Positions 1,288 to 32,714 of a stretch of 33,586 nt of DNA are shown here, in pieces. This DNA comes from a virus. The notes under the pieces were generated by a model. That model worked only from the letters and a program-made list of their open reading frames with translations, did not search any database and was not told the DNA's origin. Position 1 is the stretch's first letter. Every line of letters begins with the position of its first letter. The stretch lies in the IMG/VR virus record IMGVR_UViG_3300022871_000063, positions 1-33,586 of that record; one strand, given 5' to 3'. The translations under genes were made by a program, and so were the position numbers.

Positions 1288-4200
1288 TAGTTTGAATAAA
1301 ATGGGTTAGGACTTCTTAATTCTATTTGTTTTTGTAATTGTTCTTTGAGTTGTTCTTGCGTGTTATCTAGCGTTCCTACATTCTTTAGATTCCAAACCTC
1401 TCTTACTTTACCAATTATATTATTTATTGCTTTTGATCTATCGTAATCACTCATAGTTTCATAAGCAGGAGCTGCTACTACTTTCTCTAAAGCTCCCTTA
1501 ATAACACCACCAGTTTGTTGCATCATTCCTCTGTATTCTTCTGGTGTCATATCTATCTTAATACCAGTTCCTGAAATACTAGCTGTCTTACTAGGGTCTC
1601 CTAAAGCTAGTCCTGAATAGTTTTGAAATAATCTATCGAGTTCTGCGTTGAGTGGAGAGTCTTTTGCTTCTCTTGGATTTACTGGATTGAAGAATGGGTT
1701 TAAGCCTGTTCCTAATCCTACATCTGAATATTGCATATCTTCTCCAAATACATCTTGTCTTGGAAGTAAGTTCTGACTCATTCCAGGTATTCTTGATTGG
1801 ATAGCTTCTCCCATTGTATTCTTTTGTCTTACTACTGGGTCTAAAGCTCTAGCACCAGCTCCAGATATTGAAGGTATCATAGAACCAGCTAAACGATTTG
1901 AGAAACTTCCTCCATATCTTTTAGGGTCTTGAAAGGCATTAAGCATTCCAGAAACCCCTTGCAAGTATGTCTGTCCTAATAAATTTTTACCAACTGCACC
2001 TGCAGCAGCAAAAGGAATATTCTCTGGTTTCATTCTTCCTAGGTCTGACATAGCAGCACCAGTTGATAAAACATTACCAGCAGGGGATAACCTATTAAGT
2101 GAATACGAATTGTCTCCTAGTCTTATTGAATTTGCTTGTTTACCTTGTAATTCCCATAGATTTCGTTCTGTTGGGTTTGTTGGATAATTTCCAGTCATCA
2201 TTCCAGCCTTTCCTAATCCATATCCTGCAGCACCTATTCCTGTTCCTACTGTTGCCCTACCTAAAGCGTCTACTACTGACCTCTGTCCTTGTCCACTAAA
2301 CCCTTTTGAACCTGCTTTAACAAAACCAGCAGGGGAATAGTCTATAATTGTAGAAGCAATATTTGCTGGAGTTCTACCGAATGGAGCTACAAACTCAGTA
2401 AAAGCTCTTACAGATTGATTGGGGTTAGATTTAAGTTTATTTAATGCGTCTGATAACACATTCTGGTCATTAAAAGTTCCATACAGAGCGTCTTCTGTGG
2501 CTATCTTAACCATCTCTGTAGTTGGTTTATTATAAATTTTGTCTACGTGAGCCTTTAATGCTTTTCCTTTTAGTCCACTATTTATTCCATCTACAACTGC
2601 TAGTTCTCTTAATGCCTTTTGCATTAGCCCACCTTTAAATACCTTATCACCTGCACCCAAAGCTCTAAAAATAGTTTCTGCATATTGCTTTGCTACTGGT
2701 GGTAAGTTTACTTGTTTAAAATCATATTTACTTAATGTGTTATCTATATCAACTCCTGTCTTCATAAATACCCAAGCCTTTCTTGATCCTTTACCCATAC
2801 CTCTTAAATAAGAAAGTATATTAGGAGTAGTCTTTGTTCTTTTCCCTGTGAACATAGCAGCTACTCTATCAAATACTGTTGCTGGAACATCTTTCATCAT
2901 TTCCATTCCACCCATAGCAGTATTACCAGTTAGATTAGCAATGTGAGTTGTTGGATTTGTTAGAAGTCCTGCTTTCCACAAAGTAGTTATTTGGTCTCCT
3001 AATTTAGAAGGTATCATTTCTCCAACACCTTTAAGCATTTGAGCATTAGCTAGTGCCTGAGCTTCTGGAGTCTTAGCTTTCTGAGCATCATAAGCTAAAT
3101 TTTCTAAAGTCCAAGATTGGTCTTTTGTAAGAGTAAGTCCTTCTTTACCTAATTCTTTTTGAGCAAACATCTTAATCCCCTCTGGACTAAGCTTATTATA
3201 AAGTGAAGCAGCTTGTATTGCCCTTCCGTGTTCAGTAAGTTTTTGAGCTACTGTCTTTGTTATTTCAGCAGCTTGGTCGAAATCTCCTGTATTCTGATAA
3301 TGCTTAATAAGTTCCGAAGCTGTTGCTACTGCAAGGTTATCGTCTCCTTTCATAGCCTTAGCTTTGGCTTTGTTTATATCATCTAGGATAAGATTGGTAG
3401 CGTGAGCAGATAGTTCATCATTAGGTTGTGGCGTATATTCATTATCAATAAGCATTTTAAGTTTTGCGTCTGTATTTCTTCCACCCTTAACTGTTTCAGT
3501 AAAACCTGTTTTTTTAGTTCCTTTTGTTTTTGGTGCGATAGCTTCTGGTATTGATGGTTCTGCTTTAGATACAAATGCTTTTGATTCAGCATCCATTCCT
3601 TGCGAAGCTTTGTTTAGTTTTCTACCAGCAGAATATTTACTTAAACTCTTACCAGCTACTCCTAGACCGCCACCTAATACTCCACCTGCTGCAGCACCGC
3701 CTAAAGCACCTTTACCAGTTGATTTCAATAAGTCTCCAGCTCCTTGACCTTGGCTAGCACCTCCAGCTAAACCATAACCTGCTCCTATTTGAGAACCTGT
3801 TGCAGCTCCTTGTAAAGCACCTTTCAATGCACCAGCACCTTTAAACGCCTTAATACCCTTTGCAGGTGCATAGAATGTAGAAGCTATATCTAGTCCAGCC
3901 ATTCCTAACTCTCCTGCTGCTTTCTTGTATTCTCCTTTTCTTGCTAGTTGTCCTGATTTTAGACCTCTTGAGCTAGGAGTTTGGTATTCGTTTCCTAGAA
4001 ACTTAATACTTTTAACTCTGTCTTTTTCTTTTCTCCAAGGTTGAATAACATTTCCACCTAAATCAGCTAATACAGCTAGGGGAGTTCCTATAATATCTTT
4101 ACCTACATTTTTCAAGGTATCCTTAAAGCCTCCACTAGAAACTGGCTTATAACTACCTTTGGGTAGATTTTTAACATTTAAAGTCTGCTGTTTTTGAACA

Positions 4201-4289
4201 GGCTTATAACTTCCTTTTGGTAAGTTTTTTACGTTTAACTTAGTGGAAACATTTTTATAGCTTCCTTTCTTTAGGTCTTTGATATTCAT
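1287..4289 (-). CDS. Large internal virion or DNA-ejection-type protein
   Basis: 1000 residues. The N-terminus has three copies of a 14-residue repeat (positions 1-14, 18-31, 37-50) with core NxKxLxKGSYKxV. A Gly/Ala-rich, poorly charged stretch follows at about residues 150-215, able to act as membrane-inserting helices. The middle is helical (TPR-like pattern around residues 290-370), and a second Gly/Ala-rich patch lies near residue 680. Large proteins with this composition placed after the tail-hub genes of podoviruses are usually internal virion proteins ejected with the DNA. No lysozyme or protease motif was seen. The assignment rests on size, composition and position, not on a recognised domain. 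Confidence 0.6.
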   Translation of the reverse strand: MNIKDLKKGSYKNVSTKLNVKNLPKGSYKPVQKQQTLNVKNLPKGSYKPVSSGGFKDTLKNVGKDIIGTPLAVLADLGGNVIQPWRKEKDRVKSIKFLGNEYQTPSSRGLKSGQLARKGEYKKAAGELGMAGLDIASTFYAPAKGIKAFKGAGALKGALQGAATGSQIGAGYGLAGGASQGQGAGDLLKSTGKGALGGAAAGGVLGGGLGVAGKSLSKYSAGRKLNKASQGMDAESKAFVSKAEPSIPEAIAPKTKGTKKTGFTETVKGGRNTDAKLKMLIDNEYTPQPNDELSAHATNLILDDINKAKAKAMKGDDNLAVATASELIKHYQNTGDFDQAAEITKTVAQKLTEHGRAIQAASLYNKLSPEGIKMFAQKELGKEGLTLTKDQSWTLENLAYDAQKAKTPEAQALANAQMLKGVGEMIPSKLGDQITTLWKAGLLTNPTTHIANLTGNTAMGGMEMMKDVPATVFDRVAAMFTGKRTKTTPNILSYLRGMGKGSRKAWVFMKTGVDIDNTLSKYDFKQVNLPPVAKQYAETIFRALGAGDKVFKGGLMQKALRELAVVDGINSGLKGKALKAHVDKIYNKPTTEMVKIATEDALYGTFNDQNVLSDALNKLKSNPNQSVRAFTEFVAPFGRTPANIASTIIDYSPAGFVKAGSKGFSGQGQRSVVDALGRATVGTGIGAAGYGLGKAGMMTGNYPTNPTERNLWELQGKQANSIRLGDNSYSLNRLSPAGNVLSTGAAMSDLGRMKPENIPFAAAGAVGKNLLGQTYLQGVSGMLNAFQDPKRYGGSFSNRLAGSMIPSISGAGARALDPVVRQKNTMGEAIQSRIPGMSQNLLPRQDVFGEDMQYSDVGLGTGLNPFFNPVNPREAKDSPLNAELDRLFQNYSGLALGDPSKTASISGTGIKIDMTPEEYRGMMQQTGGVIKGALEKVVAAPAYETMSDYDRSKAINNIIGKVREVWNLKNVGTLDNTQEQLKEQLQKQIELRSPNPFYSN

Positions 4290-4296
4290 ACATTTT

Positions 4297-6354
4297 TTAA
4301 GCTGGCGACATATTTCCGATAGAGTCTACATTATAAAGTTTACCTTCAAATTCTATTTGACTATTTCCTTGTCCTACTGGCTGTCCTGTAAATCCTCCTT
4401 CAGCTCCTAATCCTAATAAGGCTGATAGAGGATCTTGACTTACTAAACCATTTTTTTGGTTATAGATTTTTCTAGCTGTTGTTGCATCTACTCCATATTG
4501 TTTCATTATACCATCAAGTGCTGTTCCATAACTTTTTGGAGTTGATCCTCCACTCCTAGCCTTAGCTTGTGCAGTCTGAAAATCTCTTTGATTTCCTTGA
4601 GCTGTTGAACGAGCTTGTCGTTGTTGATTCATTAAGTTCTGCATATTTGTAGAACCTTGATTTCTAGCTGATAGAATGTCTTGACCTTTAGCAGCTTGAA
4701 GTGAACTTAGCAATTCAGCTAAATTTCTACCTTGATCGTTTTGTAGTCTTTGTTGGTATTGGATTCTCTGTTCGTCATTAGGGTCTGAGTTTCCAAAACT
4801 AAACTGTGAGTTTAATTGATTCAAGTTTTGTCTTCCTTGTCTTTCAAGGTCTCCAGTTTGTTTAGTCTGAGCAGTAGCGTATTGAGATTCTATTCCCTTA
4901 ATCATATCAGCTAGTTGTCTTTTTTGTTCTGAGTATTGGTCGTCATAAGAGTCGTCTCCTGCGTAGCCAAAGTCTCCTAAGCCTCCAGATGGATCCCATT
5001 CTTGTCCATATTTAGCTGCATACTCTCTTTTACTTAAACCTCCTCTGTCTGCTGGTGCGTTCATATTACCACCTCCTCCTGTATAGTCTTGTTCATAATT
5101 TTGATTGTTAGTTTGATTATATTCTATTGGTTCTTCTTCTTGTGGTTGTATTATAGGTGCTGGTCCTTCAGGGTTTTCTGCTTGATACCCATAATTTGTA
5201 GGGATAGTTGCTGAATTATAGCTATAATCTTTTTGTCCACTAAATCCTCCATTGTCTCGAGGCACTTGAGAAGCCTGTGCAGAATTAATCATTCCAGTAG
5301 AAGCTAATATCTTTTGGAGTATATTCATTTCATCATCTTCTCCACCTAATCCTAGTCCTCCACCTCCGACTAATCCTTGTTCGCTGTTATATCCTAGTCC
5401 ACGAGCATAGTTTCCTTTACCAGCTATTCTTGAAACAGTAGGGTTATCGTATTGGATAGCTCCACCATCAGCAGGTTCAGGTTCTACAAATTGTTGTTCA
5501 GGTTGGAATTGTTCTAATGCACTTTCTAATGGAGATTGTGGTTCTGATATAGAGCTTCCATTATCATCTGTTTGTCTTGGTGCTGGTCTATTCGTTCTTC
5601 CTGCAAAATCTTCTATACTTTCGTCAGCATATTGAATATATGGTCTTCGTTCTTGAGCATTTATATCATACCCTGTTTCCTCTCTCCTTCTGTCTAATAT
5701 GCTTTGGTCAGCGTCAGCTATATTTTGGCTAACATCTAATTGTGGTGTAACTCCTCTAAGTGCTTGGGATATAGCATCACCAGCTCCTTCTTCTGATTGA
5801 TAAATCTTATTACCTAATCCTAGACCACTCATAAATGAACGACCTCTAGGCTCTAAACCTAATGGATCTTTTAAAATTTCAAGTCCTCTTTCAAATACAC
5901 CTTTCCTTCTACCTTGTGTAATTGTAGGTTCTCCTCTGCCTTGTGCGTTAGCTGTTTTAGTTCCAGTTAGTTTATTAAAAACTCTAGAAGCTGAACTTCT
6001 TTGAGAAGGTTTAGAACTAGACGAACTTTTAGATTTACTCTTAGACTTAGATTTAGTGTCTGTATCGTAATCAGATGTTCCTATTTGAGCTTGTCTAGTG
6101 TAAGGATTATAGTATCCACTACTAACTTCACCAGCCCTACTTGGACCACTTTGTAATCCACTTTGTGTTGGACCATACGACTTATTACCTACTCCTCCTC
6201 TTGAATTAATCTTAGTAGAAGCTTGTTTAGCTGAATATTCCCTTTTCGATAACCCTCCTCTACTTTTAGAAGATGACTTTGAAGATGGTGCTGATTTACC
6301 ATACTTCTTTTTATATTCCCTTTTACTTAAACCTCCTCTTGATTTGCTACTCAT
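4297..6354 (-). CDS. Large low-complexity virion protein with RGGLSKREY repeats
   Basis: 685 residues rich in Ser, Gly, Gln and Asn. The element RGGLSKREY occurs at residues 6-14, 32-40 and again near 440, the first and last copies extended by xxKYG. A Ser/Lys-rich tract (SKSKSKSKSSSSSK) lies near residue 105. A glutamine-rich, probably coiled-coil region covers about 480-620. No enzyme motif was found. It lies seven bases upstream of the 1000-residue protein and shares its repeat-bearing N-terminus style, so the two may be packaged together as internal proteins. Role inferred from context only. Confidence 0.6.
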   Translation of the reverse strand: MSSKSRGGLSKREYKKKYGKSAPSSKSSSKSRGGLSKREYSAKQASTKINSRGGVGNKSYGPTQSGLQSGPSRAGEVSSGYYNPYTRQAQIGTSDYDTDTKSKSKSKSKSSSSSKPSQRSSASRVFNKLTGTKTANAQGRGEPTITQGRRKGVFERGLEILKDPLGLEPRGRSFMSGLGLGNKIYQSEEGAGDAISQALRGVTPQLDVSQNIADADQSILDRRREETGYDINAQERRPYIQYADESIEDFAGRTNRPAPRQTDDNGSSISEPQSPLESALEQFQPEQQFVEPEPADGGAIQYDNPTVSRIAGKGNYARGLGYNSEQGLVGGGGLGLGGEDDEMNILQKILASTGMINSAQASQVPRDNGGFSGQKDYSYNSATIPTNYGYQAENPEGPAPIIQPQEEEPIEYNQTNNQNYEQDYTGGGGNMNAPADRGGLSKREYAAKYGQEWDPSGGLGDFGYAGDDSYDDQYSEQKRQLADMIKGIESQYATAQTKQTGDLERQGRQNLNQLNSQFSFGNSDPNDEQRIQYQQRLQNDQGRNLAELLSSLQAAKGQDILSARNQGSTNMQNLMNQQRQARSTAQGNQRDFQTAQAKARSGGSTPKSYGTALDGIMKQYGVDATTARKIYNQKNGLVSQDPLSALLGLGAEGGFTGQPVGQGNSQIEFEGKLYNVDSIGNMSPA

Positions 6355-6394
6355 AATTTTTTAGAGAGTTTTTAATTATTTTTATAATGAATTA

Positions 6395-6925
6395 TTATTT
6401 AAAATGTTTATTTAGATAGGAATCTGTTGTTTTATGACATTCATTGCATAGTGTTCTCCCATTATCTATTGCAAATCTTAATTCAGGATATAATGCAAAT
6501 GTCTTGATGTGGTCTGCTTCTATTTTTTCTTCACTACCACACCATACACATTTATAGTCATCTCTCTTAAATACCGCTTCTTTCCATAACCTATATTCTA
6601 TTGAATTTCTTATCTTTGCATTTATTTTAGTCAAACCACCTTTCCAAAAATGACTTTTCTTTACTTTATGAGAATTACTCATTTTTAATCTTGTTTTTAA
6701 ACTACACTTTCTTCCAGTATGCAATTTTCTCATCATTTCTATAAATTCTTTAGGTCTTTTTTTCCCAAGCATTCCCATTGAACTTGGTTTTCCCTTTCTC
6801 CCCAAACTCATTTTCTTTTTTGTTTCATCAGTAAATGGTTTTCTTTTTCTTCCCAGTTTGGCTTTCCTAAGTTTCTCAATAGTTTCTGATGAATGCTTAT
6901 ATCCTTTTTTTCTTCCTGAAGCCAT
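6395..6925 (-). CDS. HNH homing endonuclease with NUMOD3 repeats
   Basis: 176 residues. The N-terminal half carries several Lys/Arg-rich NUMOD3-type DNA-binding repeats (SSETIEKLRKAKLGRK, TDETKKKMSLGRKGK, SLKTRLKMSNSH). The C-terminal half is an HNH domain: CVWC, then ADHIKTFALYPELRF, then NGRTLCNECH, giving paired zinc cysteines and catalytic histidine. It sits alone between the lectin-domain gene and the 685-residue protein, neither of which looks broken. It is clearly related to the HNH gene at 16940-17503, sharing TRLK, FWKGG/KWKGG and HIKxFAxYPxLRF. This fits a free-standing mobile endonuclease. Confidence 0.9.
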   Translation of the reverse strand: MASGRKKGYKHSSETIEKLRKAKLGRKRKPFTDETKKKMSLGRKGKPSSMGMLGKKRPKEFIEMMRKLHTGRKCSLKTRLKMSNSHKVKKSHFWKGGLTKINAKIRNSIEYRLWKEAVFKRDDYKCVWCGSEEKIEADHIKTFALYPELRFAIDNGRTLCNECHKTTDSYLNKHFK

Positions 6926-9842: not shown

Positions 9843-10436
9843 TTATGATCCTTGAACCATTAAAAAATCTAAATTATCGTCATTCTTCATTTTATCGCTA
9901 TTCATTTCTACTATTCTTGAGTCTACTTCTTGTAGTGAGCGTTCAGCGTCTTCAAATGGGTCTGATTCACTCCTACGAAGCATTGCATAAGCATAAGCGA
10001 CTGGTGCTTCTGGGTCAGTTACAAAACATTCGTCAGTGTCTAAAGACATAGGTGAAGGATAGTAGTAGTATTGAATATCGTATTCTTGGTCTGAATCTGT
10101 ATTTAAGTAGAATCCATTAAAATGGTCTCCACTTATCCAATAAACATATCCATTTTGTTGGTCTAGGTCGTCTTGTCCTACTTGAACCATCTCTGTATCG
10201 TCTAAAAACACTCTAAATATGCTTTTAAAGTTCTCTGGTAGAGCTATTGTTCCATTTACTGTTGTAAGCGAGGTGGTTGCTTGTATGTTAGTTTTCCTTG
10301 CACAATAGTTTTGACCTTTATTTAAAAGTCTTGTCCATAGTGATAGAGTTGTTGCTTTAGTTGGTAGAGTCCCAGAGTTATGTCTGTCAGCTAAACTTTG
10401 TTTTAAATCTGCTAGGGTTTGTTTTACGAATGCCAT
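9843..10436 (-). CDS. Head-to-tail adaptor (gp4-like)
   Basis: 197 residues, helix-rich at both ends with a beta core. The features are ALPENFKSIFRVFLDD near residue 70, YVYWISGD, an EYDIQYYYYPSPMSLDTD strand, and a C-terminal helix beginning DPEAPVAYAYAMLRRSE. This arrangement matches the head-completion adaptors that dock under the portal in podoviruses. It sits directly before the tail hub. The start ATG has AAAAACT immediately upstream and no Shine-Dalgarno sequence. Just upstream is a 10-bp hairpin (10456-10490) in an otherwise empty 60-base gap. Confidence 0.75.
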   Translation of the reverse strand: MAFVKQTLADLKQSLADRHNSGTLPTKATTLSLWTRLLNKGQNYCARKTNIQATTSLTTVNGTIALPENFKSIFRVFLDDTEMVQVGQDDLDQQNGYVYWISGDHFNGFYLNTDSDQEYDIQYYYYPSPMSLDTDECFVTDPEAPVAYAYAMLRRSESDPFEDAERSLQEVDSRIVEMNSDKMKNDDNLDFLMVQGS

Positions 10437-10455
10437 AGTTTTTATAAATTACTTA

Positions 10456-10490
10456 ATTCTGGAAGCGAACTCTACAAACACTCCCAGAAT
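10456..10490 (-). promoter_or_regulatory. Intergenic RNA hairpin upstream of the adaptor gene
   Basis: On the transcribed strand ATTCTGGGAG pairs with CTTCCAGAAT across a 15-base loop, giving 10 pairs including one G-U. It fills the gap between the 157-residue gene and the adaptor. No U-run follows it, so it is not a normal intrinsic terminator. A processing site or transcript stabiliser at the junction of the sugar cassette and the tail genes is possible. Confidence 0.45.
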
Positions 10491-10498
10491 AAAACAAT

Positions 10499-10972
10499 CT
10501 ATCCGTCAAGTAGAGTTTTAAATGATGCCTTTTTTTCTTTTAAGGCGTTAAATTTGTTTAAGACTTTAATATACTCAGATATTCTTTTAAGTCTTGTAAA
10601 AGTTTCGAGCCTTTCCGAGCCAGCTTCTTCTTCAATTTCTTGTAGAACTTTTTCGTAGTTTTCAATGTTATTTTCATACTGTTTTTCTGCTATTTGACTT
10701 TTTATATATTTATCTATATGAGAGACTTGCATCTTTAATGGAAACTCTCCTGCGAACTCTTTTATCTTAAAATGACTCTCAATAAACTTTGTTCGGTGTA
10801 ATCCTTCCCAAACTTCAATATTCTTTTCGTCTGCTGTAAGCTCGTCTGTGGCAGGACTTTCATTACCCTGCAGTTTATCCCCTTCTGGTAGTGCAACTGC
10901 TTGTGGGGCTTCCTGTGGCGTCTCAGTGGCTACTGGAGCTTCTACAACTGGTTCTCTGAAAGAATCCGACAT
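10499..10972 (-). CDS. Acidic helical protein, unknown
   Basis: 157 residues. The first 50 are Pro/Ala/Glu-rich and probably disordered (ETPQEAPQAVALPEGDK). From about residue 60 the rest is predicted to be helical and partly coiled-coil. No domain was recognised. Its start lies 31 bases inside the end of the aminotransferase gene. It is the last gene before the adaptor, and its build (disordered acidic start, helical end) resembles scaffold-like or internal head proteins. This resemblance is compositional only. Confidence 0.6.
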   Translation of the reverse strand: MSDSFREPVVEAPVATETPQEAPQAVALPEGDKLQGNESPATDELTADEKNIEVWEGLHRTKFIESHFKIKEFAGEFPLKMQVSHIDKYIKSQIAEKQYENNIENYEKVLQEIEEEAGSERLETFTRLKRISEYIKVLNKFNALKEKKASFKTLLDG

Positions 10973-12247: not shown

Positions 12248-13427
12248 AGAGTTTTACTTCTGGTAAAGGTACTATCCAAGTGCCTTTATACTCAGAGTTA
12301 TTTTTAATTATCTCGTCTTTAAAATTCCAAGCTAGGATTAAAGCATAATCAGGTTGTCTTTTGATTAGCTCATCATCTCCAACTATCTTTATTTTTGTTC
12401 CTGGGGTATATCTTCCAATTTTTAATTTACTTTTCTCTGTTATGAAATCTATAAACTTTCCTATTCCTGTGTAATTCAGCAGAGTCATTCCTTTAGCTGG
12501 GCTACTTACACAGCATATTGTCTTTCCTTGTTGGTGAATCCAATGACACATATCAAATAGATTTTCTGCGTGTTGCTTTGCCATCTCTCCCCAAGCTAGT
12601 AGTTCTTTCTTTGACCAGTCTTCTTTATCAGCCATATCTTTAACTACTGGCATAACTGTATGAACTCCTTTGTTTGCGATATAACATCTGAAAGCTCCTC
12701 CGTGTAATTCACTAAACGATACATTAAATACTTCTAGGTCATACTTCTCTAGGAACTTCATTACTGGTTTCAGCGATAAGTAGAGTAGGTGTTGGTGATA
12801 CACAGTATCGTATTCTAATCCTTTTAGAAATTCTCCAAAATAAGGAGATTCAAATACAAATACGCTCTTTGTCTTCATTATCTTCTTTAGACCTTTCACA
12901 AAGTCATCGTGATCGTGTACGTGAGCAAACACATTCGTTCCAGTAATGATGTCAGCTTTTTTAATTCTATCTGACTTCTCTACTAATTCGCTTGAAAAGA
13001 AATCTACTATTGTAGGTACTCCTCTATCTCCTGATATTTCTCCTACTTCTTTACAGGGGTCTATATTTAAAACTTCAAATCCTCTTTCTTTAAATTTAAG
13101 TGATAGTGTTCCATCGTTTCCTCCAATATCAATCGCTTTTCCTGATTTAATCCCTGATACTCTTATCACATCATCTGCTAGTTCTCCCCAATGTTCTCCT
13201 GCTGTATCTGTTATTGAGGCTTCATATAAATAATCTTCTGTATACATTACTTCTTTCTCAACATTGTAAGATAGTTGAGCTAGTCCACAATCGGGACACA
13301 TCATTAGAACTAATGGATACCTTGTTTCTGGTTCGTCGTTTGTCTTTCTAAATTGGTCCGAATGAGGATGATAACCTAAGTCCAGAAACTTATATAAATT
13401 ATCACTTTTGCAGAGTCTACATTTCAT
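12159..13427 (-). CDS. SAM-dependent sugar C-methyltransferase
   Basis: 422 residues in the order known for C-methyltransferases of deoxysugar pathways (TylCIII/NovU type). An N-terminal zinc-binding module has CRLC at residues 3-6 and CPDCGLAQL near 49. A Rossmann SAM-binding domain has AIDIGGNDGTLSLKFKERGF and a following acidic strand end. HQHLLYLSL and ELHGGAFRCYI mark the family-specific middle, and a C-terminal domain ends with DYALILAWNFKDEI and IVPLPEVKLYE. Relatives usually stop about there. The last 29 residues here lie inside the cupin gene and look like a stop-loss extension. The substrate is expected to be a keto-deoxysugar nucleotide. Confidence 0.85.
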   Translation of the reverse strand: MKCRLCKSDNLYKFLDLGYHPHSDQFRKTNDEPETRYPLVLMMCPDCGLAQLSYNVEKEVMYTEDYLYEASITDTAGEHWGELADDVIRVSGIKSGKAIDIGGNDGTLSLKFKERGFEVLNIDPCKEVGEISGDRGVPTIVDFFSSELVEKSDRIKKADIITGTNVFAHVHDHDDFVKGLKKIMKTKSVFVFESPYFGEFLKGLEYDTVYHQHLLYLSLKPVMKFLEKYDLEVFNVSFSELHGGAFRCYIANKGVHTVMPVVKDMADKEDWSKKELLAWGEMAKQHAENLFDMCHWIHQQGKTICCVSSPAKGMTLLNYTGIGKFIDFITEKSKLKIGRYTPGTKIKIVGDDELIKRQPDYALILAWNFKDEIIKNNSEYKGTWIVPLPEVKLYEVRNTQGQKGNDKGLNGWGGFLDNSYNV

Positions 13428-18102: not shown

Positions 18103-18122
18103 ACGAACTGATAAGAGTTCGT
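18103..18122 (-). promoter_or_regulatory. Hairpin upstream of the GroES-like gene
   Basis: ACGAACT and AGTTCGT form a perfect 7-bp stem with a 6-base loop on the transcript, 14 bases ahead of the GroES-like ATG. It follows directly after the pseudoknot-like element. No U-run follows, so termination is unlikely. It may shield or position the start region, or stabilise the capsid message. Confidence 0.5.
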
Positions 18123-18131
18123 AGAGTTAAT

Positions 18132-18181
18132 AATTATTTGCTCGATTTAGAAGGCTTTTCGAGCTTGCCTTCCAAATAATT
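18132..18181 (-). ncRNA. Pseudoknot-forming RNA element after the capsid gene
   Basis: Three perfect complementary pairs are packed into 50 bases, beginning 9 bases after the capsid stop. The outer arms AATTATTTG and CAAATAATT (9 bp) enclose GAAGGC/GCCTTC (6 bp) and GCTCGA/TCGAGC (6 bp). The last two are interleaved, not nested. Their connecting loops are 2, 3 and 4 bases, which is geometrically reasonable for an H-type pseudoknot. If they do not fold together, they form two mutually exclusive hairpins, that is, a switch. No known family was recognised. Confidence 0.6.
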
Positions 18182-18190
18182 CTACTTGAA

Positions 18191-19168
18191 TTAACCTACA
18201 CCATAAGCTTGCATATTGATTACCCAATCGGCATTCAATACTTTAGCAGCGTAAGCATCAACTTTCCAACCAATTGTTGAGAAAGTATCCAAAGGATTTC
18301 CTGTGTCATAAGAGCTAGGTTTCTTGTAGATGATTCGAGCATCTTTAGAACCAACAGCAACTTCTGCAACAGCACCTTTACCAGCAATGAAGTTAGAACG
18401 TCCAGAAACAGCAGCAGCAGTATCTACACCAGAAGCACTAAATGCTTGATTGGTTTCAACAATGTCTACTCCATACAAACTTCCGATAACACCTTTCTTA
18501 AGCATATCAGCATTTTCCTTACTATTGTAAGTACCAATGTTGATCCAGTTACCAGCAGCAGTATCTCCTTGTAGTCCATAAGCACCATCTACATTAACAA
18601 CAGCACGATAGTTACCATTGTCAAATTTAGGAGCTTTGTTCTTCTTAAGGGTAGAAACAGCTTTTCGTATGCTAGATACTGATAGATTATCAGAAGCAGC
18701 AAGAGCTGTAGCTTGAGCAGCGAATGTAGCACCACCACATTGAGTAGTAGCAGATGCGTTTAATTCAGTTCCAAGGATTATATCCATGGAGTCTCCAGCA
18801 TTCTGTCCCATAAGTTCAGAGTGTTCCTTCAAACCTGAATCCATAGTTGTCATTTCATACAAAGTTCCTATTCTCTCAAATGCACCATAAGGTTTAGCAG
18901 TTGCGATAATACGTGAAGAACTTGTGTTAATACCAGTTGGGCTTGCACCATCAGTCAAAGCTGTAGTGTTAGCAGTCATTTGGTTATAACGTGTGAAGTA
19001 AACTACTTCTCCAGAGTTTTTAGGGATAGATTTAGGAATAGTTAGAAAGTCATACTTTCTAGTATTCTGTAGTCTTTCAAGAAATACCTTATCATAGAAG
19101 ATTTGCATTGAACTAGCTAAACCTCCTGTTGAGATTGCAGGTGTTCCTTGAGGATTAAAATTTGTCAT
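18191..19168 (-). CDS. Major capsid protein, N4-gp56 family
   Basis: 325 residues. Family marks are MQIFYDKVFLERLQNTRKYD near residue 22, IPKNSGEVVYFTRYNQM, TALTDGASPTG, ATAKPYGAFERIGTLYEMTT, LMGQNAGDSMDIILGTEL, a central Asn-Val-Asp strand (YRAVVNVDGAYGL), YGVDIVETNQAF and a C-terminal ARIIYKKPSSYDTGNPLDTF. This is the HK97-fold coat protein type named after coliphage N4 gp56 and found across podoviruses. It follows the scaffold gene by 8 bases. The upstream context is A-rich without a Shine-Dalgarno sequence, surprising for the most abundant virion protein. Confidence 0.9.
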   Translation of the reverse strand: MTNFNPQGTPAISTGGLASSMQIFYDKVFLERLQNTRKYDFLTIPKSIPKNSGEVVYFTRYNQMTANTTALTDGASPTGINTSSSRIIATAKPYGAFERIGTLYEMTTMDSGLKEHSELMGQNAGDSMDIILGTELNASATTQCGGATFAAQATALAASDNLSVSSIRKAVSTLKKNKAPKFDNGNYRAVVNVDGAYGLQGDTAAGNWINIGTYNSKENADMLKKGVIGSLYGVDIVETNQAFSASGVDTAAAVSGRSNFIAGKGAVAEVAVGSKDARIIYKKPSSYDTGNPLDTFSTIGWKVDAYAAKVLNADWVINMQAYGVG

Positions 19169-24486: not shown

Positions 24487-24558
24487 TTATTTAGTTTTTA
24501 AGAATAAGTAAAACATAGCTAATACCCACATAGTTAAGAAGAATAATATTGTCTTCAT
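24487..24558 (-). CDS. 23-residue membrane peptide
   Basis: Product MKTILFFLTMWVLAMFYLFL then KTK: an almost wholly hydrophobic span with a basic end. Its ATG overlaps the TGA of the upstream gene (ATGA), good evidence for coupled translation. It stops just before the HTH gene. Function unknown. Confidence 0.45.
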   Translation of the reverse strand: MKTILFFLTMWVLAMFYLFLKTK

Positions 24559-25142
24559 AGTTTTTTTCTTTTAATTATCCAATTATGCATTTTTTCTTTT
24601 GATGCACTCTCCGCCGCACTCGCCGCATTCTCCTCCGCATTCTCCGCCGCATTCTCCGCCGCACTCCACGCCGCACTCCACGCCGCACTCGCCGCCGCAC
24701 TCGCCGCCGCATTCGCCGCCGCACTCCACGCCGCTGCTCTGTTTTTCTTTGTATCATTCTCTAAAACTTTTTTGGCTGCTTGAATCGCTTTTCTAGGTCG
24801 CAAATTGTTAGGGTATTCTTTTTCAAAGTTTTCCGAAACTAATTCAGCCGAATAAATAGCTAAAGAAAGAGAGTCTTTTCTGGTCCACTTTTTCCAGTCT
24901 ATAATTCTCATTTCTTCCCAGCATTGTTTATCACTTCCAATTTTTGATTTTCCTCTAACTTCAACCTTAGCTAACCAAAAACAATTAACATACCTTATTG
25001 CGTCAATAATATTTTCAGAAGCGTGAAAGCCATTTTTGCAAATGTCTAATTTTCCTTTGATTTTATACCATTTGCCTTTAATGAATTTGTGTCCGTGCGG
25101 AGCTTTATCTTCTGGTAATGATTTGTATAATATTTTATTCAT
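24555..25142 (-). CDS. DUF7666-like protein with Ala-rich tetrapeptide repeats
   Basis: 195 residues from the ATG at 25140-25142, whose ATGA overlap with the upstream TGA fixes the start (an upstream start at 25199 would run through the previous gene). Residues 1-90 have APHGHKFIKGKWYKIKGKLD, ICKNGFHASENIIDAI and FWLAKVEVRG, the pattern of the DUF7666 group (GxxFxxGxxY, CxxGFHxxxN). The middle is helical. From about residue 130 comes a run of AA[W/A/E][S/N] tetrapeptides encoded by GC-rich 12-base repeats. Such Ala/Trp/Ser tails follow this domain in other phages and bacteria. Function unknown. Confidence 0.68.
   Translation of the reverse strand: MNKILYKSLPEDKAPHGHKFIKGKWYKIKGKLDICKNGFHASENIIDAIRYVNCFWLAKVEVRGKSKIGSDKQCWEEMRIIDWKKWTRKDSLSLAIYSAELVSENFEKEYPNNLRPRKAIQAAKKVLENDTKKNRAAAWSAAANAAASAAASAAWSAAWSAAENAAENAEENAASAAESASKEKMHNWIIKRKKL
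24604..24735. repeat. GC-rich 12-base tandem repeat inside a gene
   Basis: Roughly 11 imperfect copies of a 12-base unit of the form CCGCCGCAC/TTCC in an otherwise AT-rich genome. On the coding strand each unit spells GCG GCG, then TGG, GCG or GAG, then AGT or AAT, so the variation is mostly confined to one codon per unit while Ala is almost always GCG. This codon choice is unlike the neighbouring genes. Confidence 0.85.
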
Positions 25143-25468
25143 ATTATTTTTATTATTTCTTTTATATCTTCTAATCCTTTTATATTTCCTTCGTGCCAAT
25201 CTATTGGTAAAGAAGAATGTGTCGCTATTATCTCTTTATGAATTTTAATCTTCTCCTCTATCTTTTCTAGTAAAACTTTTCTTTCTTCTTTAACCATTTC
25301 TTCGCTAATATGTATTATTTCTTCATAACACTTCTTCTTTTCTTCTTTCAAATAAAACTCTACATCATTCTCTATTTCTTTACATATATCTGGGGAGATA
25401 TTATTTAAGCAACAAGTGTCAGCTAGGTTTGTTTCAAACCCCCACTTTGCATCTATTTCTTTACTCAT
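25139..25468 (-). CDS. Charged helical protein, unknown
   Basis: 109 residues. The N-terminal 30 residues include a Cys-Cys pair (ADTCCLNNISPD). The rest is a Glu/Lys-rich coiled coil (YLKEEKKKCYEEIIHISEEM). Similar layouts occur in small phage proteins of unknown role. Both ends overlap neighbours by four bases in the ATGA manner, so it belongs to the coupled run of small genes from 26449 to 24487. Confidence 0.6.
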   Translation of the reverse strand: MSKEIDAKWGFETNLADTCCLNNISPDICKEIENDVEFYLKEEKKKCYEEIIHISEEMVKEERKVLLEKIEEKIKIHKEIIATHSSLPIDWHEGNIKGLEDIKEIIKII

Positions 25469-26449: not shown

Positions 26450-26454
26450 AAAGT

Positions 26455-26763
26455 TTAGGGGGTTAATTTAATATTATTTTCTTTTATAAATTTTAGAGCT
26501 TCTTCTCTAGTATGGTCTTTCCTCCAACATCTTGCTCCCATATAAGCAGGAGTAAATCCAATAAGGACTGCCGAAGTGTCAGGACAAGCAGTAGTGTGTA
26601 TAGATGTTTTTTTTCCACAAACTTCACAATGACCCTTAACTTTCTCCCACCAACCACCTTGCTCGTTTATATCACTAGCTGTTATTTTATCTACTTTCTG
26701 CCACCAAAATGCACAATCAAACCATCCGTATTTTTTATGTAAATATTTTTTTAATTTTTCCAT
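26455..26763 (-). CDS. Small zinc-binding protein, unknown
   Basis: 102 residues. A Trp-rich start (YGWFDCAFWWQKVDK), then GHCEVCGKKTSIHTTACPDT, giving a CxxC pair plus further Cys and His, then ARCWRKDHTREEALKF. The Cys/His layout suggests one zinc site. No family recognised. It directly follows the lysis genes, five bases after the 30-residue membrane peptide gene. Confidence 0.6.
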   Translation of the reverse strand: MEKLKKYLHKKYGWFDCAFWWQKVDKITASDINEQGGWWEKVKGHCEVCGKKTSIHTTACPDTSAVLIGFTPAYMGARCWRKDHTREEALKFIKENNIKLTP

Positions 26764-30231: not shown

Positions 30232-30462
30232 TTAAAAATTAAATTTAACTTCCCAACCATTAGGATATAACTCATCAAATTTTTTTGAATGATAATTAGA
30301 TACGGAGTCTTGTTTTACCCATCTAGGTGATGATGAAGTTCCTTTAATAATTACTTCTCCATTTTTATCATAAACCTCGTAATTATAGTTAGGAGTTTCA
30401 AATCCAGTTTCAGATGTTGGATTTATATTTACGATTCTACATATTAAAATTGTTTTACTCAT
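30232..30462 (-). CDS. Small hypothetical beta protein
   Basis: 76 residues from the ATG at 30460-30462, context AAACTATATG. The longer open frame upstream overlaps the Cys-rich gene and is not needed. Mostly beta (ILICRIVNINPTSETGFETP, YEVYDKNGEVIIKGTSSS) with a C-terminal DELYPNGWEVKF. No family recognised. Confidence 0.55.
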   Translation of the reverse strand: MSKTILICRIVNINPTSETGFETPNYNYEVYDKNGEVIIKGTSSSPRWVKQDSVSNYHSKKFDELYPNGWEVKFNF

Positions 30463-30475
30463 ATAGTTTAGGGGG

Positions 30476-30622
30476 TTAGTTAATTTCAATAAATTCTTTG
30501 CACTCTTCTCCACCTTCAAATTCTGCGTAACATTGGCAAAATTCATTAGGTTCTGCTTTATACCGATAACATTCTTCTTTTTTAGGGCAATCTTCTTTTG
30601 CACACATTGATATATCAGGCAT
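30476..30622 (-). CDS. Cys-rich 48-residue phage peptide
   Basis: ATG at 30620-30622. The product begins MPDISMCAKEDCPKKEECYR and continues FCQCYAEFEGGEECKEF. Six cysteines. The MPDISMC..CP...CYR pattern is a recurrent small phage protein, usually near recombination genes, with no known role. It follows the structured RNA region directly. Confidence 0.65.
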   Translation of the reverse strand: MPDISMCAKEDCPKKEECYRYKAEPNEFCQCYAEFEGGEECKEFIEIN

Positions 30623-30652
30623 ATACTTATTTTTAATTATAATTTACTTTCG

Positions 30653-30799
30653 CCAGTGTTATACATATAGTCGACTACCCTATGGATTTCTACCATACTC
30701 GCTTTAGGAGATAGGCTTCTTGTATAACATCTGGTGGAAATAAACTATCTTAGATAGCCCTACGAGCTCACACAATGCCCGTAGAGCTGTTTATACTCC
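30653..30799 (-). ncRNA. Two-domain structured RNA candidate
   Basis: On the minus-strand transcript, the 5' domain (30799-30736) is a three-way junction: the outer stem GGAG(U)AUAAAC/GUUUAUUUCC encloses a 12-bp hairpin AGCUCUACGGGC/GCUCGUAGGGCU with a 9-base loop and a second short hairpin UAUC/GAUA. One base later the 3' domain (30734-30653) is closed by CCAG(A)UGUUAUAC/GUAUAACACUGG, with smaller helices inside (UAUGG/CCAUA). The G-U pairs make sense on the minus strand only. No protein frame longer than about 20 codons with an ATG is present. No RNA family recognised. Confidence 0.6.
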
Positions 30800-30816
30800 T
30801 TTTAGGTAGTTATGTA

Positions 30817-31371
30817 TTAAAAGGGTACTTCGTCTACGTTTACCTCACTTTCCTCAACTTTTCCTTCTGTGCTTTCTTCTTTCTTTTTAACAGAGGATTT
30901 TTCTTTTTCTTCTGCGGTTAGTGGAGTAAGTTCATCAGTAATAGAAAGATAATTTGCGATATTATCGTAAGTCTTATCTCCAACTTGATTAGGCTCAATC
31001 ATAATTCTAATCTGCTTTCCAATCATGTCATTCATAAAGTCCTTGTTGAATGTTGCTTCTTCTTCTGGTTCAAGTTCTCTCTTTAAGATTGCTTCAATAA
31101 TGTTGTATAGGTCATTCTTCCCTTTCTTACTAATGTAAAGAAAAGTAGGAATAAAATTAGCCCATACGCTTCTACCTCTTAAATCATTCTCTCCGTCTTT
31201 ACCATTAAGTAAAGTGAATTGAACAGCGAAGTTCTTATCTCCTGGTTCTGCAAACTTTCCCTTAGCGTCTACTAAGTTAATATCCAAGATTTGAGCTTGG
31301 TAAATATCCTTTGGAATTGGAGGATATTCTTTTTTCTCTTTTTTCTCTATCACGATTTCTTCATTAATCAT
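30817..31371 (-). CDS. Single-stranded DNA-binding-type protein
   Basis: 184 residues from the ATG at 31369-31371; a GTG 21 bases upstream is possible. KEYPPIPKDIYQAQILDINL and NFAVQFTLLNGKDGENDLRG form an OB-type beta barrel as in phage ssDNA-binding or DUF669-like proteins. After residue 140 it is charged and disordered and ends EVNVDEVPF, resembling the acidic DDIPF tip through which SSB recruits partner proteins. It lies after the Gp157 gene, as in many phage recombination operons. It is followed by the structured RNA. Confidence 0.7.
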   Translation of the reverse strand: MINEEIVIEKKEKKEYPPIPKDIYQAQILDINLVDAKGKFAEPGDKNFAVQFTLLNGKDGENDLRGRSVWANFIPTFLYISKKGKNDLYNIIEAILKRELEPEEEATFNKDFMNDMIGKQIRIMIEPNQVGDKTYDNIANYLSITDELTPLTAEEKEKSSVKKKEESTEGKVEESEVNVDEVPF

Positions 31372-32644: not shown

Positions 32645-32659
32645 AATTTTTTTTATCGG

Positions 32660-32707
32660 AGACAACGACACTCTATCCAAAGGGCTTCAAATAAAGTGTC
32701 TGTGTCT
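32660..32707 (-). promoter_or_regulatory. Long hairpin in an early intergenic gap
   Basis: GACACTTTAT pairs with ATAGAGTGTC (10 bp, one G-U), extended outward by AGACA/TGTCT, with a 14-base loop. It fills most of the 70-base gap between two small genes, 16 bases before the downstream ATG. No U-run, so not a standard terminator; an attenuator or RNase III-type processing site is possible. Confidence 0.5.
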
Positions 32708-32714
32708 TACCCTT

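Follow-up and report, generated by a model that had tools for sequence, protein, structure and literature searches.

The virus record IMGVR_UViG_3300022871_000063 of IMG/VR is linear and comprises 33,586 bases, and the window analysed here is this whole stretch at its full length. Almost all of its genes are located on the minus strand. The identified structural genes code for the terminase, the portal and the major head protein, an SU10-adaptor-like protein is also encoded (Pfam SU10_adaptor, E 1.6e-14), and the early genes include those for a Gp157-like protein, RusA and a DNA methylase. According to the terminase, the closest relatives holding the region of interest are G002 (L004), G004 (L006) and the fragment G005 (L007), with terminase proteins 92-97% identical to that of the window. 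The structural genes share ~77-95% DNA identity with those of the relatives; in the early region, homology comes in short pieces arranged as a mosaic. The orthologues that we compared are few and closely related, and the three relatives with the region represent two lineages.

The region of interest is an intergenic gap of 194 nt in the early part of the genome (Table 1). It contains no open reading frame (ORF) of at least 30 aa on the transcribed strand and no peptide common to all relatives, in line with the initial annotation, which had seen no convincing ORF there. The same annotation placed the gap between a gene for a single-stranded DNA-binding protein (SSB) and a gene for a Cys-rich peptide. 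The window protein is only weakly assigned as an SSB and its AlphaFold model (pLDDT 42) was uninterpretable, whereas the proteins at the same place in L006 and L004 have strong matches to SSB PHROGs (E 1e-10 to 1e-12). The latter two are 60% identical to each other, and no similarity was found between them and the window candidate. In L006, a gene for an NLKNANLEYA-repeat protein (3861-4439, pentapeptide-repeat-like) is located immediately 5' of the SSB gene. The Cys-rich peptide has a 59% identical relative in L006, which is encoded farther downstream of its hairpin than in the window.

On the minus (transcribed) strand, positions 30653-30799 fold with -48.7 kcal/mol (z -4.56), and none of 200 shuffles was as good. 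The earlier claim that this stretch folds as RNA is thereby supported, as is the claim that its wobble pairs suit the transcribed strand: the G-U pairs fit the minus strand, and the plus strand folds more weakly (z -3.86). Tiling of the window's minus strand yielded z -5.8 for the best tiles and about -4.0 for the tile aligned on this region, which is among the strongest folds of the window and not unique.

The architecture proposed in the initial annotation, a three-way junction with a 12-bp hairpin next to a long closed domain, was recovered only in part. The 12-bp hairpin was found and folds well on its own (module A; Table 1). The second domain (module B) likewise exists and has an inner stem of ~13 bp with one bulge (30721-30734 with 30653-30665), close to the 12-bp one-bulge stem that had been described, but the boundaries 30653-30799 clip this domain, which reaches 30639. 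No three-way junction was seen. The minimum free energy structure has only the 12-bp hairpin within an AU-rich stem, and once the flanks are added this stem is displaced by a better one, the 11-bp, AU-rich closing stem of module B, AUAGUUUAUUU (30738-30748) paired with AAGUAAAUUAU (30639-30649). The junction stem is also absent in L006 and L004. Because the 12-bp hairpin occurs in L004 without the second domain, the predicted structure is that of two independent hairpin modules and not of one RNA.

Known families do not account for the fold. None of the families of Rfam 15 matched at gathering score in the window, G002, G004, L003 or L005, a permissive Rfam search of 30400-31000 returned no more than two matches, both at chance level (E 1.6 and 2.1), and a tRNA search found none. 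The proposal of a new structured RNA thus holds in so far as there is no Rfam 15 match and the relatives keep structure at the site; it fails for a single RNA, as two modules are present.

Table 1. Genes and hairpins discussed in the text; positions refer to the window unless another record is named.
Feature	Position	Strand	Remarks
Upstream gene, probable SSB with acidic VPF tail	30817-31371	-	weak PHROG SSB match (E 0.03-0.05)
Module A, 12-bp hairpin with 9-nt loop	30756-30788	-	~30 nt past the SSB stop codon; z -4.59
Module B, putative leader hairpin of the Cys-rich gene	30639-30748	-	z -4.0
Downstream gene, 48-aa Cys-rich peptide	30476-30622	-	from the ORF list; ATG 16 nt past module B
Adaptor leader, best-supported class member	10444-10502 (wider 10437-10502)	-	precedes the SU10-adaptor-like gene 9843-10436
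Adaptor-leader orthologue	L217 9759-9817
Adaptor-leader orthologue	L219 11260-11318
Adaptor-leader orthologue	L252 1428-1500
Adaptor-leader orthologue	L253 1428-1493
Further long hairpin, 20-22 bp	32658-32711	-	just 5' of ATG 32644; z -3.6 to -5.1; without the shared closing-stem sequence

On the plain reading, module A is the 3'-UTR hairpin of the SSB message. In L006 and L007 it belongs to a 92% identical island (30737-30836) right after the SSB stop codon, and in L004 to a 90% identical island of 51 bases (30746-30796), again after the SSB stop codon. Module A is consequently found behind two unrelated SSB-type genes, that of the window and that of L006 and L004. Among 46 records and 85 loci, a covariance model of module A (R2) matched only these genomes, and pattern scans of the collections viral_contigs and genome_contigs recovered the same three relatives, all other hits being at chance level and falling in coding or low-complexity sequence. 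Ten of the 12 pairs are invariant across three distinct sequences, one C-G pair is changed to U-G and one terminal pair is broken in L006; compensatory changes were absent from these three sequences. Two fixed wobbles and the change from C to U opposite G in L004 preserve pairing only on the transcribed strand, the other strand having A-C mismatches, and this pattern mildly favours an RNA over a DNA palindrome. As a candidate intrinsic terminator module A was rejected: it did not appear in the terminator scan, it lacks a U tract and its stem is followed by ATCTAAGATAG. Another hairpin of the phage group (L218, ~6586-6657) does end with a run of T. The 5' arm of module A in L004 (4463-4498) reads ATG GGC TTC GTG TAA; in the window and in L006 this ATG is ACG, and the stop at the same codon is retained (TGA).

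The closing stem of module B is shared between the window and L006 (5092-5161), where the inner part of 48 bases is unrelated to the 88 bases of the window and a hairpin is formed regardless. At this site, module B is common only to the window and L006 and the inner parts cannot be aligned, so that covariation is not countable there. A 15-mer of module B used as a search probe returned chance hits only.

Hairpins of the same kind recur elsewhere in these genomes. We searched the transcribed strands of the window and of the G002 and G004 stretches for arms of the form AAGTwAnwwAw that have an upstream partner pairing with them at no fewer than 10 of 11 positions. This search found 10 paired sites against ~0.5 expected in shuffles, a count which includes orthologues and hence corresponds to ~5-7 independent sites, two of the ten being weak; the opposite strands searched had 0 sites against ~0.7 expected. 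An ATG follows within 30 nt at nine of the ten sites, and the 3' arm ends 0-16 nt from the start codon. The inner stems differ in sequence and always keep their pairing, and with the closing stem removed the inner segments remain able to fold over their full length (z -2.4 to -3.8). There is thus a class of leader hairpins that is strand-specific, lies just 5' of an ATG, keeps an AU-rich closing stem, has its inner stems replaced and covaries at one orthologous site. Module B conforms to the pattern AUAGnUUnUUU/AAGUAAwUUAU with an ATG within 30 nt, all 11 positions of its arms being paired. At three sites, the gene upstream ends with a UAG stop codon that lies within the AUAG of the 5' arm (window 10499-10502, stop 10499-10501; L004 4760-4763, stop 4761-4763; L004 5235-5238, stop 5236-5238). 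AUAG is also present at 30748, yet no gene ends on its UAG. The leader motif AAGTAARTAATATAAATATA was associated with no hairpin beyond G002. In the L218 record of G002 (~6230-6520), a promoter-like TTGACA-N16-TAAGAT precedes a tandem of two B-type hairpins that flank a 4-codon ORF, and a second promoter-like sequence lies past them.

The class member with the best support is the leader of the adaptor gene, which starts on the UAG stop of the gene 10499-10972. A hairpin precedes the adaptor-gene homologue in five out of five records found, down to 53% protein identity, and two records found later (L254 and L256) have it as well. Compensatory changes affect eight of the 23 pairs among four distinct sequences. 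Standard pairs fill 95.7% of cells, compared with 42-54% in slid controls, and 13 cells are changed on both sides against 5.0 in shuffles, none of 500 shuffles reaching 13. The loop UAGAGUU is conserved. Covariation among homologues, by which the RNA of the initial annotation was to be judged, is therefore seen at the best member of the leader class and not in the three sequences of module A, and the adaptor leader is a better structured-RNA candidate than 30653-30799. The adaptor leader and module B share their architecture and closing stem, not the loop. A covariance model of the adaptor leader (R3) had no match at 30639-30748, so that it is by architecture and closing stem that module B is related to this covarying member.

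From these comparisons we posit, with middling confidence, that the region forms a segment of two parts between cistrons of an early mRNA, in which module A would be the 3'-UTR hairpin of the SSB gene and module B would serve the Cys-rich gene as a leader hairpin acting in cis and belonging to the class described above. The B hairpins probably act on translation initiation, by gating or by coupling. Once folded, the closing stem would put the stretch just 5' of the AUG in double strand and thereby lower initiation. At the three sites where the upstream gene ends within the 5' arm, a ribosome ending on this UAG could open the closing stem; such coupling cannot act likewise at 30748, because no gene ends on that UAG. 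Alternatively, the long helix (at least 20 bp) might be opened by a cut, for example by RNase III. The outcome would be that expression of the downstream gene is set relative to its neighbour. The suggestion of a riboregulator of the neighbouring genes thus gains partial support, as module B falls into a recurring class whose best member covaries. A guess about a single site has in this way turned into a testable class, with a closing stem reused before several genes, a swapped inner stem and covariation at one orthologous site. Hairpins reaching from stop codon to start codon would let a compact phage set expression ratios without extra promoters.

The early RNA of phage T7 is a polycistronic mRNA with RNase III sites between its genes, and the B hairpins, perhaps also module A, might be processing sites of this type, at which a cut would free the downstream message and leave the upstream one protected by a hairpin at its 3' end. 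We consider this unlikely, though by no means negligible. The helices total ~20-34 bp, have internal mismatches and are located in intergenic gaps of the transcript, 5' of start codons, as do the long imperfect hairpins of the T7 early region, and their inner sequence is free to vary with pairing retained. Three features would go unexplained by RNase III alone, however: the invariant AAGUAA arm near the AUG, the 5' arm with its stop codon, and the loop UAGAGUU conserved in the adaptor leader. In contrast to T7, a shared AU-rich closing stem here abuts the AUG and, at three sites, starts on the upstream stop, and one loop is conserved; a T7-type site is matched by helix length and position only. 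Processing and translational gating can work together, and the B hairpins are perhaps also cut by RNase III. For module A, a role as DNA has to be weighed as well, either as an operator palindrome or as a hairpin extruded from ssDNA near replication genes, as has been proposed for STAXI. Both of its arms and the flank AUCUAAG are highly conserved, without compensatory change, and it adjoins SSB genes; against this, the wobbles noted above pair only on the transcribed strand, and we regard the DNA reading as rather improbable. STAXI is a structured motif near SSB genes with a role as RNA or ssDNA (PMC2864571) and is the nearest precedent, with the same question of RNA versus ssDNA nature. It is a tandem pseudoknot with UUCG loops, whereas module A is a single 12-bp hairpin. 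The L17 downstream element, a structured RNA that occupies the 3' UTR of a single gene (PMC2864571), resembles module A in its location behind a gene but differs in gene, host and sequence, and module A had no Rfam hit to either.

If the phage SSB, or another protein of the phage, bound the region as a translational operator, the arrangement would resemble that of T4 gene 32, in which a pseudoknot is followed by a leader with UUAAA/UAAA repeats (PMC535899). Here too, a structured element lies 5' of an unstructured, UUAAA-rich leader with the start codon, as the hairpin is followed by AAUUAAAAAUAAGUAUAUG, and an SSB gene adjoins. The T4 pseudoknot is, however, located upstream of the SSB gene, whereas the present hairpins lie downstream of it and before unrelated genes. 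This operator becomes less likely because unrelated SSBs share module A and because B hairpins precede a structural gene too, and we give it very little weight. Two further readings brought up in the initial annotation, a phage small RNA standing on its own and a host-defence decoy, found no support and are the least probable of all. The gap of 194 nt with its strong fold and without an ORF would suit such an RNA, but its two domains come apart in the relatives, and the second is coupled in position to the next gene's start codon. Moreover, no promoter (limit at least 9 of 12 matches) and no terminator that could delimit a small transcript were found in a scan of the minus strand, and there was neither an Rfam nor a tRNA match. 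A promoter candidate within module A (TTGTGT, 17 nt, TAAGAT) reached seven of 12 matches and was rejected under this limit.

The intercistronic reading with a leader hairpin might be extended to an RNA-RNA control network, in which the loop UAGAGUU of the adaptor leader would pair with AACUCUA, often AAACUCUAUG, at the start codons of other genes. We hold this to be quite improbable; if true, many late genes could be under the control of a structured leader, acting both in cis and in trans. On the transcribed strand of the window, AACTCTA occurs 18 times against 4.8 expected, between 7840 and 24001 (for example at 12253, 15274, 17003, 20421, 20615 and 23657) and with none at 25-33 kb, and six of the 18 copies lie right at the ATG of an ORF. 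It is also enriched in L003, L006, L008 and L023. In L254, L256, L257 and L258, a loop-pairing AACUCUAC, AACUCUAU or AGCUCUAC is found ~20-60 nt 5' of the adaptor hairpin; these copies fall where the preceding gene ends, and their reading frames differ. In L259, the loop-pairing sequence lies much farther upstream of the hairpin.

Some further features of the window were recorded. On the minus strand, CTAACCCCCTAAAC and a one-mismatch copy occupy two intergenic gaps (30466-30479 and 26453-26466), two copies at this mismatch level being within chance, and the same string is present in the L006 gap. The minus-strand gene 24555-25199 encodes a protein with an Ala/Trp/Asn-rich repeat tail, and its DNA contains the heptamer TGCGGCG nine times in an otherwise AT-rich genome. 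Behind the major head protein gene, the gap contains a strong minus-strand hairpin (18104-18190), and the tile 18137-18286 has the window's best z (-5.8).
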